This document shows, piece after piece, positions 1-62,786 of a DNA stretch of 64,000 bases. The notes beneath the pieces are model-generated. The model saw only the letters and a program-made list of their open reading frames with translations. It searched no databases and had not been told where the DNA came from. Within the stretch, counting starts at the first letter, position 1, and every line of letters starts with the position of its first letter. Where the stretch lies: assembly GCA_009869945.1 (NCBI GenBank), contig WIXG01000113.1, forward strand, positions 146,879-210,878, given 5' to 3'. The DNA comes from Mesaphorura yosii (Eukaryota; Arthropoda; Collembola; Poduromorpha; Tullbergiidae). Both the position numbers and the translations under genes were made by a program.

Positions 1-6774
<6,774 letters not shown>

Positions 6775-47695: not shown

Positions 47696-49431
47696 TAGTT
47701 TACTGAAACAAATCTTTGCCGTTTGTATCTTGTTAAACTTTCATTTCGTTTTTCAGGAAGTTTTTTCTCATCTCGTTTAATGTATTTTGACCGTTCAGAT
47801 CTTTTTCTGCTAAGTAATATTCCTATTTTGTCAATAGTACCTTTTTTAATTGATAACCTTCTCCCGCCATACACAAAAATACTTCAGCACTCGGCACTCG
47901 CTATTTATGTCTGATAGTTAGCTAAGTTAAGGAACTCTTTCGTCAAGGCTCAAACTGTTGACTCTGAGTACTGATTTGGAACCCTTTTAATTAAACTTAT
48001 TGAATCTAATATAAACCATGAGCATCGTTTCTGTGGAAAAAAATGCACATTTTCTCCTGGTTGCTGCTCTTGTCTCATTATTGAGTTCGAAAGATCTCTC
48101 AAGTTAATTTAATTTGTGCAATCGAACCCCTTAAGAAAGCGTCTTCACGGATCAACTTAATTACCTGCCGAGAGTGGTAAAATGTAATTTATTCATAGAG
48201 TAGTGAAGAACTGTAAATCGCCTAAATGTATTGTACTTTGCGTAGACAATTGAATGATGTTCTCCAATGTCATCCTAATTAATGGGTGAATTTGTATATT
48301 TTATACGTTGGAATACTTGTGTTTGTAGTCTGAATTTTTAACAAAGCAAACATCACCCTGAAGCTGGAACTTTTGTGTTCCATGTGAATAAGCTTAAATA
48401 TTATCTAAGCACCTGTAAATAGTTAGTTCCGTCGTCCTGTCCATTTTGTTACATGACGTAGTTTCGATATCGCATACTTAGTTTTCATATGTAAACAATG
48501 ACGAAATTTATAAAATAAAATAACTTTCTTGCAAGTTAAAACTTATGTAGCTTGATGCTGACGCGCGGAAAGATAAAATACATCGTGTGCCTTACTATTT
48601 TGGAGCTGGACCTTTTTGAGGCTCATTCGGGACATAATAACTTGGAATGAAATGTAGCTTTATTTCCAACTAAACTGACACGATGCGCGACGGAAGATAA
48701 TCACTACGAAATTCACAAAGGACCGAAACTTGCAACGTTGCAACAAAGGTGCGGCGAAGAGTGGAGCTACCTACGGTTACGTAAAAACCTGTTGTGGGGT
48801 TCAAGAATGAAGACGTTGAGACACCTGTCTTGTGTATCCTATGAATTTTCATTGTTGTCTTGCAGGTGAGGTTAGACTGTACTGTATGGAAGGGCGGGTC
48901 GTTATGCACTGCATGTACAAGAGCTGCTGAGTCTGCGTTCCTCCGCTGTCGGTATTCGCTATGACTAATCCAGGCCATAATATTTACATTTTCGGAAATC
49001 GAAATCTCAATGCAATGCAACAGTAGCAGTTTGAGTTTAACGCAGCTCAACATTTAAACGTATTTCACGGGAAAATACTCAAACTAGAGTTAGCTTCCGG
49101 GCTGAAAATATTACTTGGCAGAACACTATCACTCCAATCTCTATCAAAGTATTTAAATTCGTGATGTGCCAATCGGTGACACCAAACTGTCACAATTGAT
49201 CGGAGAAAAGCTAGTTGAGATGTCAAGACGCGACTGGAGGGATGACATGTAATCGCTACCTCCAGGAGCGAATTTGGAAAGTAGTGAACGTAGTTTAGAA
49301 ACCTCTCCTGGTGACTTGCAGCAAATTTGAGGAGCATCGGAAAGTAAGCGTCCGCTGTCGAGGAATCTTGATTGACAATAAATTGACCGTTGGTCTAATT
49401 GCTTAGCATCATATTTATACTTGTTTTCAGA
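47696..49431. other. Zinc-finger gene 3' UTR and Contactin upstream region
   Basis: AATAAA at 48514-48519 is the probable end of the zinc-finger transcript (about 0.8 kb 3' UTR). The remaining 0.9 kb ends in a TTTTCAG acceptor at 49430, one base before the Contactin ATG, so a non-coding Contactin first exon lies somewhere upstream. Two open frames on the minus strand (49337 down to 48670) end near a minus-strand AATAAA but match nothing I know. Confidence 0.5.
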
Positions 49432-52400
49432 ATGGCTTTAAGAACTTATCACTGCATCATTGGCATGTTTTTGATTCCCACCACAACTTTATTTATGGCA
49501 CAGTCAGTACATGGTCAGAATGGTCAAAGTACTTCACGCGACTTCAATCCATTCAACACGTTCGGTGGAACGCAAGGGTTTGGTGGGCAAAGGGACTTTA
49601 GTGGAAACCCATTCAGCATTTCCAACACACTGCCTCCGACGGGGATAAGGGACAGGGAAAGAGACAGGGAGCGTGAGCGAGACCGAGACACACTGAGAGA
49701 TCCCTTCAATCCCTTCAGCCCGCAAAGAGGAATCGGGCTCAACACTTTCGGAGGAGGTCCTTTCGGAACCACACGTTTGGATTTTGACAGCACGTACAAC
49801 TTCCAATCCCCTGAGAACAAAATTTGCCCACCAGGCTGGGAACAGTACGAAGTGTCGTGCTACAGATTTGTCAGATCTCCTATTCACAATCGAGACGATG
49901 CCAGAAGGAATTGCCAGGTAAACGGAACACAACGTCGCAATCTTGATTATACGCAAAAAGTAAGTTTAATCGTCTCGTGTGTATGATAATTAGGCATACG
50001 GGAATGGTGCTGATCTCTTGAGCATCAATTCCTTGGAAGAGCATACGTGGATTGTACGGAGATTGACCGCCATCGATCCACAGCATCGTGAGTGGTACGT
50101 GTCAGGACGTCTTGCAGCCGGCAGTTGGATTAACGCTGACGGCTCTCAGTTTCCACCAAATTTTGATCAAGCATTCCTTCAGGATCAGCCCTCGTCTTCA
50201 TCTAATCTCCTCTACAATCATCTAGTTTATAGGTGTGTATAAGTATTAGTACTACCAGTCCTGTGTCGCCAAACAGAATAATACCGCTTAATTTTTGAAC
50301 TCTTTCTTAGTTATTCTGAACGAAGAAATCGAGCTTGGGGTCTACTGAAAGTGACTGGATATGACCTGCTTTTATACATTTGTGAAGTACCTTTGGCTCA
50401 AGTGCCTTACATTGACCTATCTATCGACGATAGAGATTTCGATTACGGAATAGAAGTCGACGATGTTAGAAAAATTCCGAAAGGGCCGTATTTTATTCAG
50501 GAGCCAGAAGATGTGGTTTTCGATCTCTCTCGAAACATTCTACGTTCGTACGTTTCACTCAGGTACGCCCAGTTTTTTAAAAAAATATCTTTCATTCGTG
50601 AGAATGTTGAAAAGACCAACGCCAAAAAATGTCTTTGATATTTGCAGCTGTTTGGCGGACGGATGGCCTGCTCCTATGTATGAGTGGTATAAAGAGGAGT
50701 ACTTAAATAACACGATGATTGAAATTCACATCGATCCGTTGAAGAATCCCAAGTATACGATCAGCGGTGGAATGTTGATCATCGACTCACCCAAGCAAAT
50801 TGAAGACAGAGGAAATTATCACTGTGTCGCAACAAATAAGTTTGGCTCAGTCATTTCGCAGACGGCTTCCATTTCATTCGGGTATATCGGAGAATTCATT
50901 CCAACAAGAGCACAAGAAATTGGAACGCAGTATTGGGGCAAAGCCATTTTCTGTGATCCTCCACAACATTATCCTTCCGTTCTGTACTATTGGTCCAGAA
51001 AGTCATTCCCCAACTTGGTAGAAGAGGACCAAAGAGTGTTTGTCTCGTATGATGGCAATCTTTACATTTCCTCAGTTGACATGAGCGACTATGGCCTCTA
51101 CACCTGCCACGTCCAGAGCACTGTCTCGGGGTCTGGTCGAACGGGTCCACTCTTTAGACTTCATGTGACATCAAATGGTTAGAAAAAATAACATTTTGCC
51201 GTAACATCAACTGCAGCGTGAATTTAACTACGCGATTTTTAATACAGCAAACTATCAGCAATTGAAGTTTCCAAACAACTTTCCAAAAGCATTCCCTGAA
51301 GCTCCGAAGGCTGGGAACGAAGTTCGTCTGGAATGCGTCGCCTTTGGATAGTAAGTCAAACATAACCAATTAGTTTCTCACGATGTGTTCCTAAGACGTG
51401 TGAATTTTGTGTCCAGTCCTGTGCCTTCCTATAACTGGACAAGAAAAATTGGAAGTATTCCGAAAGGTGCAATTTTATCAAATTACAACCGTGTTCTTAC
51501 AATTCCCAACGTGAGGGTCGAAGATCAAGGCGAGTATGTGTGCCGAGCAACAAACAACCGACTATCAATTGAGGATAGCGTTACGCTAAGCATTCAAGGT
51601 AAGATGACACCGTTCTTTGATGTTCGTTGGAGTACCTCAGACAATTTTATATATTTCTTTACCGATTTCTAGCTGCTCCAAATTTTACAATTCCGCTTGG
51701 CAATCGCCACATGGACAAAGACGACGACTTAGTTTGGATATGCGAGGCTTTTGGTATCCCCGACGTGGAGTATCAGTGGTATCGAAACGGGAAATTGCTG
51801 ACAATGGACACCCTACCTCCAGAAGATACAGGGAGGTATCAGATCCAAGATAATGTTTTGACCATTCGAGAACTGAACGAAGAAAATGATGCCGGAATGT
51901 ATCAATGCCGTGCGAATAACTCGCTCTTTGCCACGTTTTCCACTGGCCAACTGAGAGTACTCTGTAAGTCAAGTGCATGTCTTAAAATAATATTCTAGAC
52001 TCTCTTAACGTTCATTGTGTCACAGATATGAAACCAAGTTTCAAGAAGACTCCAGTATTGTCGGAGACCTTGGGGGCAGAAGGAGGAAATGTTACTATCA
52101 GGTGCCAGCCAGAAGCGGCACCTCGTCCCACATTTGTTTGGAAGAAAGACGGCAACATTATCGGAAGTGGTGGACGACGCCGCGTTTTTCCGGACGGAAC
52201 TCTTGTGATTCAGCCTGTTTCAAGAGATGATCAAGGACTTTTCACATGTGTCGCTCAGAATGTGCTTGGCATAGAAGAAAGCTCAGGATGGCTCGAAGTG
52301 CTGCAAGGGCCCATACTTGTGGAGCCGCCTCCTGAATATGATAATTACACAATGGGAAGCACCTTGAATTTGAATTGTCGCGCAGAGGCTGATCCAGCCT

Positions 52401-54551
52401 TGGATATTGCTTACGTTTGGAGGCGAAATGGCTTCCGCCTGGACGACGAGGAATACATCTACAGGGTTCTGGTGGACCCCCGAACTGGATTTTTGGAGAT
52501 TTCGAATGTCACCATCGACGACAGAGGCGAATATGAATGCGAAGTCAATACTTGGGTTGGATCTTTACGAGCTATATCCATGGTCCACGTGATGGGTCCT
52601 CCCGGGCCTTCTGGTAAGTAGATTTACATTTCGCATTTTTATATGCATAGGGTAGCCTTCAAATTCTTCTCTTTCAATTTTAAGGTGGAGTTCAAGCGTT
52701 TGATCTTTCTTCTACAACTGCAATTATAAGATGGTCGGATGGTGCAACAAATGGAGCACCGCAGTTTCTGTACACGATTGAAGGACGCACACAATGGGAC
52801 CCTGTGTGGAGAAAGCTCTTAGAAAGTAAAACAGGACAAATTCAAATGATGGTTCAAACAAGTATTTAATTGAATGTTTGATTAGATGTTGAAGCTGATC
52901 GGTTTGTGGATGTACGAATCGGGGAAACGACGCGGAAAGAAAAATTAGTAGGAGTCTTGTCGCCGTGGTCCGCATATGAATTTCGCATCTTGGCCGCTAA
53001 CAGATACGGCTACGGCATTCCTTCACCTCCATCTCCTCAATACAACACGTTACCAGACAAACCGTTCATTGCCCCGAGAAATGTTGGAGGAGGAGGCGGA
53101 AAAACTGGGTCATTGACTATCACGTGGGATGTAAGATGCATTTTTATATTTCTGCATTCAGTGTCAAGAACACCTTTAAGATATTCAAATGGTTGCTGGA
53201 ATATTATTTTGTAACTGGTTACGTCTTGATTATAATAGCCTCTGCCAGCAAAGGACCAGAATGCGCCAGGAATCTATTACAAGGTCTTCTGGAGAGAAAC
53301 AAGGAACTACACGGAAGGAGAATATCAGAGTGTCATTCTAAAGCAGTGGGGAAACATAGGCATTCACGTAGTTCAAGTCCCATCAATTAATTTCTACACC
53401 CTGTATGACGTTAAAGTTCAGGTCTGTCACAATCACAACTGAATTCAACTATGACGAGCGCTGGAATACCAAAGGCACTATATTGTTTGTATGCATGTTA
53501 GGCTTGGAATGATTTGGGTTCCGGTCCGGAATCTGCGCCAGTACCGATCTACAGCGCCGAAGATATGCCTCAGGCCGCTCCTGCTCTTGTGACTCCAAGA
53601 CCGTACAACTCGACTGCGATTAACGTAACTTGGATTCCGGTGGAAGAAACGCGAGAAAAGATTCGTGGAAAATTGATCGGGTACCGAGTAAGTACTAGCC
53701 GTATGTAAATCAATTCAGCTTCTGTTGCCCTCATTTCTAATCTTAATCCTATTGATTTAGATCCGTTATTGGTTGAAGAAAGACATTAATTTGTACGATC
53801 CCGAAGCGTTGAATTATCTCAGCCGCTCCCCAAAGCCATGGGCACTAATTGTAGGATTACAACCAAATACGTATTACTATGTTCAAGTCATGGCTTACAA
53901 CTCGGCTGGCCCTGGGCCGGCTAGTGAACCACAATATGGTACTGCATTTATTCGCGACCATTGTTGCATAGGCTTAACAGAACAATTTTATTCGTGCAGA
54001 TCGAACGATGAAAAAGGCACCACAAATGCCACCGATATCAGTTGCGATTTCCATGGTCGATGCAACGACTATACGAGTAACTTGGAGATTTGTCGCCACG
54101 TCTGTTGATGAAGAAGCTCTCATCGGATATAAAGTGAGTGCATTTTCAACTGCTTAGTAGAACGTGGATCCTAGCGCATCGTTTGTCGTATTAGGTTCGA
54201 ATCTGGCCGGCCGATCAAGACATTTCCACTGCGGATGATCATCTCGTCAATTTTGCGCACCGGCGATTGGAAGCTATAATTGGAGGCCTCCAGCCAGCCA
54301 AAAAGTACTTGGTGCGAGTGCTAGCCTACTCGCAAGGAGGAGACGGGAAGATGTCCTCACCCGCGCAAGAAATTATTTTAGGTGAGTTTAACGCAAGTAT
54401 GCTTAACCTGCGACCTTTTTTTAAGGTTTTGCGTTTTGATGTCCTTTCAGGGGATCCACTTGCTTTAAGGAGTTCAGCCTACCGATCTGTTTCACCATCT
54501 ATTTGGTCTCTACTGGCCTTGCTTTTCTTAACTTTAAATATTTTGAACTGA
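49432..54551 (+). CDS. Cont: Contactin (C-type lectin, six Ig, four FN3, GPI anchor)
   Basis: Cell-adhesion glycoprotein of septate and paranodal-type junctions, partner of neurexin IV and neuroglian in insects. Sixteen exons close in phase to 1,341 residues: 49432-49917, 49994-50232, 50311-50562, 50648-51177, 51248-51350, 51417-51598, 51673-51963, 52026-52613, 52685-52825, 52886-53130, 53239-53421, 53502-53687, 53761-53938, 54000-54133, 54195-54381 and 54451-54551. A signal peptide (about 1-30) precedes a low-complexity segment with NPF motifs and an RD/RE run. The C-type lectin domain follows (about 132-268, CPPGWEQYEVSCYRF). Six Ig domains show the usual Cys, Trp and DxGxYxC (for example DQGEYVCRA). 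Four fibronectin III domains follow. The end is hydrophobic (SIWSLLALLFLTLNILN) with no cytoplasmic tail, as for GPI anchoring. The lectin domain marks the arthropod form. Confidence 0.95.
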
Positions 54552-55019: not shown

Positions 55020-57188
55020 TCATACCCTATTTAAGTTACTAATGTATATCTTCTTTAATTCGGTTTTTGGTATATTTTCAAACAACGCTGCTCGATTTTG
55101 GCAGTCGCCTTTCTTGACCCAGTGGCCATATACTCGAAACGCGCAGTTGTCCACCACCTGCAAGAAGAAGGAATGTTAGGTTGTGTCTTGCCCAGACAAA
55201 GCATATGGAGTTTTGAGCTTGCACAGGTCCCTTTCTTACCTTCCTGAATGACTTGATGGTGTATGGATCCAGTGCGGCGATAGCAAGGGAAATGGGTTCC
55301 GGAGTAAATCTTAGGCGATGAATTCGTACCATACATCGAATACAGAGGATAGCGAAACGAAAAATTTTCCGAGCATCAAATGCCTTTGGCGCGTAATGCT
55401 ATCCAGACAATACAAGAAGAAAGACTGAAAGCTTGACATGGATGAAATCAACGAATTAGCAACTTACCACAATTTGAAAGAAATCATGCTGCATAGCTTT
55501 CCCCACCGTAAGTCGCTTGGCTGGGTCAACCGTCAGGAGCTTCCTAATCAAGTCTTTCGGCGAGTCTAATCCACACATACCTTGAAGTCATTTTAGGATC
55601 GCGTCCTCGAGTGTTTGAAAGCAAAGAGTGTACCTGTGATACCATCCCACTCTGGGGAGTGAAAAGAATACTTTCCTTCCATAATATTTCGTAGCATCAC
55701 CATTTGCTTCCGGTGCCAAAAAGGGGGACATCCAACTAGCCTGAAAGGAATTCGTGAATTTTAGACCGACGAGATGGAATTATTGATGTAGGCACTTACA
55801 AGGTATACATAATGACTCCACACGCCCACCTGGAATTCCATTCAGAATCATCTATTAATATTGCAATATAAGTGCGAGCATCTCCAAAATAGGAACACAC
55901 TAACACGTCAACAGGTAAACTGTATCCCATGGCGTCTTCGTACATGGCAGCTTTCAGTAATTCGGGAGCTAGATAGCCGGGTGTCCCGCACACATCTACA
56001 CAAAAGTTAGCAAAATCACGCATGTTAGCACAACTGCCCTGCATACAATCATACAGTTGCCAGTGATTCACAATTTTACTCTCTCTATCCTTCATGCAAT
56101 CACTTCTAATTCTCCCCAACTCAGTAAGATCGAATAATAGTTAACGGAATAATAAACTCGCACCGCAATCGACATTGACATTATTCAAGTTTGTCAACTT
56201 AATGGAAATTAATTCCTTTTATACCTACATGTCAACTTTCTGATCATATCCTTCATGATTCTCAAACATATTACATCGCAGAAGTTCAGGGGACAAGAAC
56301 CCCGGGGTCCCACATAAATCTGATGAAGTAATTGATACATTATTTCTCGAGTTTTTGTTGCCAAATGCTGTACTCTGACAAAAAAGTCTCATCGCTTACC
56401 AAACAATTTCTCGTTTGGTTTCAGCACTCTTGCGAAACCAAAATCAGTCAATTTGACATTGAAATTATCGTCTAGTAAAATATTCTCAGGCTTCAGATCT
56501 CTGTGCACAATATTCTTGCTGTGAACGAAATGCAAAGCTTCGAACAGTTGTTTCATGATGTACCTGTAACCAGCAACCAAATATTAAACTCCGAATTTTT
56601 TAGATTGATCTTTTACGAAATAAAATATTCCTTACTTTGTTTTTTTCTCAGAGAGCGTCACCACATTCGTCAAGTAGTCAAATAGTTCACCATTGCGACA
56701 TAACTCGAACACAAGAAATATGAACGTTTTGGACTCAAAAACATCGTGAAGTTCAACTACAAAAAGATTTGTAATTATATTGCCTTAAAGTCTCGTGCTA
56801 TTTTTTTTATATTTTACGGAATTTACTTATGTAAGGGTGCCCAGACACGAGTCGGAGGATATGAACTTCTGTGAGAATCGACTCTCTGAGTCCTTGAACA
56901 TTGTGGTCTTCATTACTTAAGTCAATGATTTTTGCGGCGAATTCTTTCCCAGTCTCCTTTTCGATGCATCTTCTCACCGTTGAACTGACTCCCCTAAAAA
57001 TAGCCGTTCAGATCGATCAATTCAAATGTGATACACAAACATAAGCCGATTTGGATCCGCAAGTTCTTGCTTTCTTGTTTGCAGGGGACTTACCTTCCAA
57101 GTACCTCCTTTGGTTCATATTTGGCATAAAATTCTTTGGCAGCATCTTGATCTGGCAACGTGTCCTCGTCCTTCTCACCACGAGCCAT
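55020..57188 (-). CDS. PhKgamma: Phosphorylase kinase gamma catalytic subunit
   Basis: Catalytic subunit of phosphorylase kinase, which activates glycogen phosphorylase in response to calcium. Ten exons on the minus strand close to 389 residues: 57094-57188, 56827-56993, 56636-56756, 56400-56563, then 56229-56319 or 55905-55995, then 55800-55829, 55634-55740, 55468-55565, 55240-55398 and 55020-55157. The kinase landmarks are the Gly loop GRGVSSTV (31-38), Lys53, HRDLKPEN (148-155) and DFG (168-170). An Asp at 183 stands where the family has the Glu that replaces a phosphorylated loop residue, so constitutive activity is expected. The family block [20 protein letters not shown] follows. The C terminus keeps [15 protein letters not shown] and QNRAALFEN, the calmodulin-binding regulatory region. 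Two interchangeable fifth exons are described separately. Confidence 0.95.
55905..55995 (-). CDS. PhKgamma: PhK gamma alternative exon 5B (distal)
   Basis: 91 bases, entered in phase 1 and left in phase 2, encoding [20 protein letters not shown] and on to YSLPVDV. It covers the P+1 loop, the APE motif and the start of helix F (residues 183-213). The acceptor is TGTAG and the donor GTTAGT. Length and phases equal exon 5A exactly. It keeps the standard APE, whereas 5A has SPE. Confidence 0.9.
56229..56319 (-). CDS. PhKgamma: PhK gamma alternative exon 5A (proximal)
   Basis: 91 bases, phase 1 to phase 2, encoding [20 protein letters not shown] and on to YDQKVDM. The acceptor is TCATCAG and the donor GTAGGT. 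It aligns residue for residue with exon 5B and is closer to the usual NMFE/HxGY pattern of the family. Including both exons would shift the frame, so use should be mutually exclusive. Confidence 0.9.
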
Positions 57189-60992
<3,804 letters not shown>

Positions 60993-61220: not shown

Positions 61221-62786
61221 TCATTCCTTAAAGCTGGTAAGACAGAGGCTGGCATTGGTTCCACCGAAACCAAACGAGTTTTTCAGTGCAATCAGTCTGT
61301 CTCCAGTTTTGTCTAGTTGTTGACTGGAACGAATTATTTGTAACCCTTCAAATCCTTCATCAAGATTTTCAAGGTTGAGAGAGGGTGGCGCAACTTGAGA
61401 ATGACACGCCAGTATGGCCAGAATTGACTCAACAGCTCCCGCGGCTCCAAGCAAGTGTCCATGACTTCCTTTCGTTGATGATATCACGACTTTGCCAATC
61501 TAAATATCGAAATATCAATCAGGTACGACGCATTTCTTTGTGGGAGTTCTCGAATGATTACAGTACAAATGAATTGTGAACATTAGCATACCTCAGCATT
61601 TTGGAAAAGTTGTCGCACAGCTATCAACTCGGCCTTGTCTCCAATCGGAGTAGACGTGGCGTGACAATTAATATAGGAAACTTGCTCCGGTTTGACATTC
61701 GCTGTATTCAGCGCTTGTGTCATTGCTCTTAGAGCCCCTCGTCCATCCTCTCGTGCTGCAGTCATATGGTTGGCGTCGCCGCTGAGACCATAACCCAGAA
61801 CTTCACCGTATATTTGTGCACCTCGTTCCAAAGCGTGATTCAACTCTTCCAGAACAAGAATTCCGGCTCCTTCACCCATCACGAACCCATCCCGCTTTGT
61901 GTCAAATGGCCTGGAAGCCTTCTGAGGGTCGGAATTAAACTTTGTTGAGAGAGCACGGAGGCGACAGAACGTGGCAATAGAAAGCGGATTTATGGATGCT
62001 TCGGAACCTCCACAAATCATGACGTCGGCATAGTTGTGTCGAATAAAATTAAAAGCGTCGCCAATGCTGTGTGCACCAGATGCACATGCAGTTGATGCAC
62101 AGTGATTGGGACCCTAGTCAGAAGAAAGTATAAGCAATAATTAATTAGGTCAAAGACGTGATAAGCGAAGGAATTCGAATTGACTTACTTCAAACCCGTA
62201 CTTGATGCTAATTTGCCCAGCCGCAAGATTTGGCAGAATTCTTGGGATAAAATATGGCGTGACTCTACTGTATCCTCGCTCCTCAAGTATGTGGCCTGTG
62301 TCTTGAACATCTTGAAGATCACACAGACCAACTCCCACACACACCCCAATTCGTCCCTTTGAAGCTTCATCCAAGCTCTTATTATCTAGTAACCCGCTAT
62401 TCTGAATAGCTTCTTCGGCAGCCACCAACGAGTACAAAGTTGCATGAGACGAGGACCGTCGTTCTGCCTCCGTAAACTTGTTGGCGATGTCTAGCTGACC
62501 CTCACTGCTTTTGCTAGCACCTGCAGCAAGTGTCAATTATAAGTACAAAGAGTACGCTGGAGTCTATGAAGGTTAAACTCGTACCTTCGTGACTAGTTGG
62601 CGTTGGAACGACTCCAGCTACTTGGCAAGGAAGTTTGCTGTATTTATGATCTGATAAGGCAATAATTCCAGACGCGCCGCTGATGATTTTCTTCCATACC
62701 GTCTCAACTCCACAACCCAAAGGCGTCACCAGACCAAGACCAGTCACAACAACACGTCGAGCACTTCCTCCAGTGCTGCTGTACAT
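61221..62786 (-). CDS. OXSM: Mitochondrial-type 3-oxoacyl-ACP synthase (beta-ketoacyl synthase, OXSM)
   Basis: Condensing enzyme of mitochondrial type II fatty-acid synthesis, which feeds lipoate production. Four exons on the minus strand, 62585-62786, 62189-62520, 61592-62113 and 61221-61499, close to 444 residues. The KAS II fold signatures are complete: [15 protein letters not shown] at the start, active-site Cys188 in STACASGAH, His329 in [11 protein letters not shown], His367 in [14 protein letters not shown], and [12 protein letters not shown] near the end. The block [17 protein letters not shown] is typical. The ATG at 62786 leaves only about ten residues before the core, with no mitochondrial presequence. 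An acceptor (TTTTCCAG) just upstream at 62796 suggests that a further 5' exon, possibly with the presequence, exists. Confidence 0.95.

Follow-up and report, generated by a model that had tools for sequence, protein, structure and literature searches.

An apparently old pair of homologous, very likely mutually exclusive exons in the catalytic core of a phosphorylase kinase gamma gene from Mesaphorura yosii

Mutually exclusive exons that arose by tandem duplication are known from Dscam, tropomyosin, FYN and other genes, where the accessible parts of two surveys describe them as homologous neighbours of equal phase with one included per transcript (PMC9741552, PMC3228551). The exon pair described here resembles these cases in being composed of neighbouring internal exons of similar length, the same phase and homologous sequence, but it was inferred from DNA only and is located in a metabolic kinase subunit. 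Two of the known systems are also kinases. Exons 7a and 7b of JNK1 and JNK2 are likewise exchanged inside the catalytic domain and appear to affect kinase activity, as far as the available text goes (PMC8746764), although JNK belongs to a different kinase family from phosphorylase kinase (PhK) gamma. The B and T forms of FYN also derive from a homologous exon pair and differ in partner binding and phosphorylation; however, the portion of the source available places that pair in the linker that joins the SH2 and kinase domains and in the ATP-binding N-terminus of the kinase domain, rather than between the P+1/APE region and helix F (PMC9741552).

The closest cases concern PhK gamma itself. In Drosophila this gene has a FlyBase-annotated mutually exclusive exon pair and is, within the accessible text, the single case among annotated X-chromosome genes in which such exons are dissimilar (PMC3228551). 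The Drosophila exons, which were compared with ours by description only, differ from each other in length and sequence, unlike the pair reported here (PMC3228551, accessible text). Vertebrates also possess two gamma kinases per animal, and Val184 of PHKG1 and Leu184 of PHKG2 echo the two exons found here (A and B, respectively). The vertebrate kinases are nevertheless two genes and not two exons, and share 24 of 30 positions in the segment, whereas A and B share 17 of 30. A literature search covering titles and abstract openings, with most subscription papers outside its reach, returned no description of the present pair. Pairs of homologous, mutually exclusive exons are known and common; their position in the catalytic core of PhK gamma is unusual. 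Textbook accounts of glycogen breakdown feature PhK as its kinase, and the activation segment of the enzyme is generally regarded as fixed, since an acidic residue makes phosphorylation unnecessary for activity. Natural variants located just after this acidic residue would make a ready experiment on the role of that surface, and the pair would be a case in which splicing takes the place of gene duplication.

The gene was found on the minus strand (57188-55020) of the window, which is the whole analysed stretch of 64,000 nucleotides of contig WIXG01000113.1. Each transcript would contain ten coding exons and encode a product of 394 residues. The features of the gene are as follows.

57094..57188, minus strand: exon 1, coding part, with the ATG at 57188
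56827..56993, minus strand: exon 2, product aligns to PHKG
56636..56756, minus strand: exon 3
56400..56563, minus strand: exon 4, with the HRD and DFG motifs; its last base is the first of the Asp183 codon
56229..56319, minus strand: alternative exon B, 91 nt, with an open frame, GT-AG borders, entry at phase 1 and exit at phase 2; 29 residues between the split codons for Asp and Met
55996..56228, minus strand: intron between B and A, 233 nt, containing one TGCATG at 56098-56093
55905..55995, minus strand: alternative exon A, 91 nt; 29 residues between the split codons for Asp and Val; donor gttagt
55830..55904, minus strand: intron between A and exon 6, 75 nt, of triplet length and with an open frame
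55800..55829, minus strand: exon 6, 30 nt, 10 residues
55634..55740, minus strand: exon 7
55468..55580, minus strand: exon 8
55240..55398, minus strand: exon 9, where the C-terminal regulatory domain begins
55020..55157, minus strand: exon 10, coding part to the stop codon, holding a 17-residue autoinhibitory motif (role as in the accessible part of PMC10978961)

The preliminary description of this DNA had named the gene PhK gamma, and the identification is borne out at full length. In phmmer searches, the alignment to human PHKG1 spans residues 8-383 of 394 and scores 445.4 bits for the A form and 450.8 bits for the B form, whereas CaMKII is the next-best family for both products at 209-210 bits. 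The kinase-domain alignment to PHKG2 scores 377.8 bits (A form) and 386.9 bits (B form). Both the kinase domain and the regulatory C-terminal domain were matched to PHKG, and the 12-residue autoinhibitory region was found in the tail of the product as a stretch of 15 residues. This region occupies the substrate site in the human holoenzyme, according to the accessible part of the source (PMC10978961).

The earlier coordinates for the two alternative exons, namely 91 bases each, phase 1 to phase 2 and 233 bases apart, were observed to be exact. Both exons have AG acceptors and GT donors (...ACAT|gtaggt for B and ...ACGT|gttagt for A), and either exon alone gives an intact reading frame of 394 residues. 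As had been predicted, including both or neither shifts the frame: the former combination leads to a stop after 241 codons, 415 nt upstream of the last junction, and the latter to a stop after 193 codons, 377 nt upstream of it. Retention of the intron between B and A gives an immediate stop. A stop codon located so far before the last junction normally means decay of the message. Because of the frame, the stop codons, the homology of the exons and the sequence they have retained, A and B are very likely to be used in a mutually exclusive manner. Neighbouring exons with such features that are not mutually exclusive were reported in only 6 of 1705 genes of the Drosophila X chromosome in the accessible part of a previous study (PMC3228551).

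The two exons are clearly homologous at the protein level, with 17 of 30 residues identical when the split Asp183 is included. A gap-free scan with exon B against all six-frame positions of the window scored 171 for itself and 98 for exon A, while the next best position scored 27. At the DNA level, 43 of 91 bases differ, and the alignment of the two exons was equalled by 55 of 500 shuffles. The differences fall at 13 of 30 first, 10 of 30 second and 19 of 30 third codon positions. The introns flanking A and B are dissimilar (their alignments were equalled or exceeded by 115 and 351 of 500 shuffles). An assembly artefact is ruled out by the number of base differences and the unrelated introns. 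Since the flanking introns are unrelated and the exon DNA is barely similar, the duplication looks old, with mainly the protein having been held.

The exchange affects residues 184-213, of which 16 of 30 are identical. The DFG and HRD motifs are kept, as had been stated before, because both belong to constitutive exon 4, and Asp183, the acidic residue by which PhK dispenses with phosphorylation of the activation loop, is retained by both forms. The reported change from SPE to APE was also found (Ser in B, Ala in A at position 192). Most of the residues contacting the peptide substrate had been proposed to change as well, but the sequence does not support this claim: from the P+1 loop to APE/SPE (residues 183-194) only three of twelve residues differ and the other nine are identical, the changes being Leu/Val184, Phe/Tyr190 and Ser192/Ala (B/A). 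The change is concentrated between APE and helix F (residues 195-213), where 8 of 19 residues are identical. Leu versus Val at position 184 also separates human PHKG2 (Leu) from PHKG1 (Val).

The similarity of the two exons to the vertebrate kinases depends on the measure. Over the whole segment A and B are about equal in identity. In the first 12 residues A is nearer to the vertebrate sequences (10 and 10 identities versus 7 and 9 for B), while in the next 19 residues B is nearer (9 and 9 versus 7 and 8 for A). The BLOSUM scores favour B (106, 115 and 108 versus 95, 96 and 87 for A), as do the phmmer bits to vertebrate PHKG. The linker encoded by A lacks residues that B and the vertebrates have in common, among them the His and the Cys that precedes xM.

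We compared the exchanged surface with the contacts of the kinase domain in the human holoenzyme, where residue numbers were transferred through the PHKG1 alignment. The accessible part of the structural study lists residues 16, 17, 22, 35, 52, 99 and 101 as contacts to the alpha subunit, and residues 111, 113, 117, 120 and 231-235 as contacts to the autoinhibitory tail (PMC10978961). Residues 184-213 are absent from these listed contacts, within the part of the source available (PMC10978961). As the exchanged surface lies outside the listed internal contacts, substrate docking or another partner are candidates for what it serves. It is possible that the two forms differ in specificity or regulation.

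Alternatively, both exons might be used with changes in the protein that are neutral, or the pair might serve mainly to control the RNA level through productive versus unproductive splicing. This fits the early stops that result from wrong choices, the nearly unchanged P+1 stretch (9 of 12) and the nearly equal kinase-domain scores of the two forms (259.3 bits for B and 259.1 bits for A). However, a poison-exon switch needs no two intact alternative coding exons, and each exon keeps human residues that are missing from the other. We consider this explanation unlikely, though more probable than the two other alternatives below.

It is improbable that a single exon of the pair is used, with the other one cryptic or a relic in decay. 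The donor of exon A has T at position +3, whereas the donor of B and the eight constitutive donors have A, as judged by eye from the ten donors of the gene. Because its donor lacks A at +3, exon A may be weakly used. This donor and the missing shared linker residues would suit a relic; yet both exons are open, in frame and bounded by GT-AG, and A matches the human kinases at no fewer positions than B (17 of 30 for PHKG1 and 18 of 30 for PHKG2, versus 15 and 18 of 30 for B). The age of the pair also bears on this question. We simulated drift in 20000 runs per exon, where a run passed if the frame stayed open and 17 of 30 residues were kept. With 0.25 substitutions per site, 6168 runs passed for A and 5754 for B; roughly 30% of drifting exons would thus look intact, and a recently dead relic would fit. 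At 0.4 substitutions per site the numbers fell to 882 (A) and 722 (B), or to 207 (A) and 157 (B) when GT and AG had to be kept as well, and at 0.5 to 130 (A) and 107 (B). A separate set of 4000 runs at 0.5 substitutions per site gave 0.8% and 0.5%. The human residues kept by A contrast with introns that have diverged beyond recognition and with an NG86 silent distance between A and B that is saturated. Four of the eight fourfold sites common to A and B differ, which corresponds to a crude silent distance of about 0.82, or 0.4 per exon. The drift test is only moderately strong, given the runs that pass at the smallest distance and the few sites behind the silent distance. Both exons are probably under constraint.

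An exon A route with the 75-nt intron (55904-55830) retained, which would place 25 extra residues before helix F in a third and probably inactive form, is very improbable. In its favour are the triplet length and open frame of this intron and the unusual donor of A; of eight further introns of the gene (seven constitutive ones and that between exon 4 and B), seven are interrupted by a stop, and the eighth is open with a length not divisible by three. Against it, open triplet-length introns of this size are presumably not rare, so this may be chance, and the insert would fall at the start of helix F.

Old, duplicated and mutually exclusive exons in one PhK gamma gene are the reading that we regard as highly probable. 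Splicing would select either B or A, and transcripts with both or neither would reach an early stop and then be degraded. The two products would share the ATP site, the catalytic loop, DFG, Asp183 and the calmodulin-regulated autoinhibitory tail, and would differ slightly at the floor of the P+1 site and strongly in the loop from APE to helix F. Both forms would most likely phosphorylate glycogen phosphorylase, and the exchange could adjust how fast the enzyme works, how it docks its substrate or how it meets a partner, according to tissue or stage.

Regarding how exclusion might be enforced, a docking/selector mechanism was rejected since pairing among the three introns was no better than chance, with 94, 30 and 257 of 300 shuffled pairs at least as stable. 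Simple steric exclusion was also set aside, as the separation of 233 nt is presumably too long. The simplest reading of the exclusion is decay of the wrong products together with a regulated choice. The one TGCATG between B and A compares with about 0.08 copies expected by proportion, although it was searched for after several other motifs had been considered; as a putative Rbfox motif it is a weak lead. Bound at this site, a factor of the Rbfox type would normally promote inclusion of B and repress that of A. An Rbfox-like gene seems to be present on contig C171, where two matches are 70% and 87% identical.

A bolder and rather doubtful proposal is that this lineage uses the splicing of one gamma gene where vertebrates use two genes. 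The two PhK catalytic subunits would then differ in the C-lobe surface from APE to helix F, which would serve to choose substrates or partners in place of glycogen phosphorylase or in addition to it, and an Rbfox-type factor might switch between the two subunits in muscle or nerve.

The rest of the genome was searched with a 74-residue query from the A form, in a search that scores the best candidates only, exon by exon. It gave 57 matches, three of which are the gene's own exons (7, A and B), while the remaining 54 are at most 60% identical with E values of 8e-9 or weaker. A second PhK gamma gene in the genome appears unlikely, and a single gene is supported by these matches. In the prokaryote and viral contig collections there were 27 and 2 pattern matches, respectively, and none was confirmed as a relative of the gene. 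Genes of the PhK alpha/beta family were found on contigs C53 and C221 with a PHKA-like query. Glycogen phosphorylase gave eight matches, all on contig C372, where the phosphorylase kinase site RRKQISVRG is encoded at the N-terminus, 5' of the glycogen phosphorylase domain match (L019, G000:C372).

Several other genes were observed in the window. The PhK gamma gene and an FtsJ-type methyltransferase gene on the plus strand are divergent, with about 600 bp between their start codons (57188-57773), and it is possible that they share a promoter. The FtsJ-type gene has a Pfam FtsJ match in frame at 58126-58641, and its start codon was placed by eye. A plus-strand gene at about 49400-54550 converges on the 3' end of PhK gamma; it has Pfam Ig domains in frame at 51986-52621 and fibronectin-III-like repeats seen by eye, and is perhaps a contactin-like adhesion gene. 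The minus strand also carries a spliceosomal PRP8 gene at 1264-3090 (Pfam U5_2-snRNA_bdg and RRM_4) and a beta-ketoacyl synthase gene at 61583-62113 (Pfam ketoacyl-synt and Ketoacyl-synt_C).
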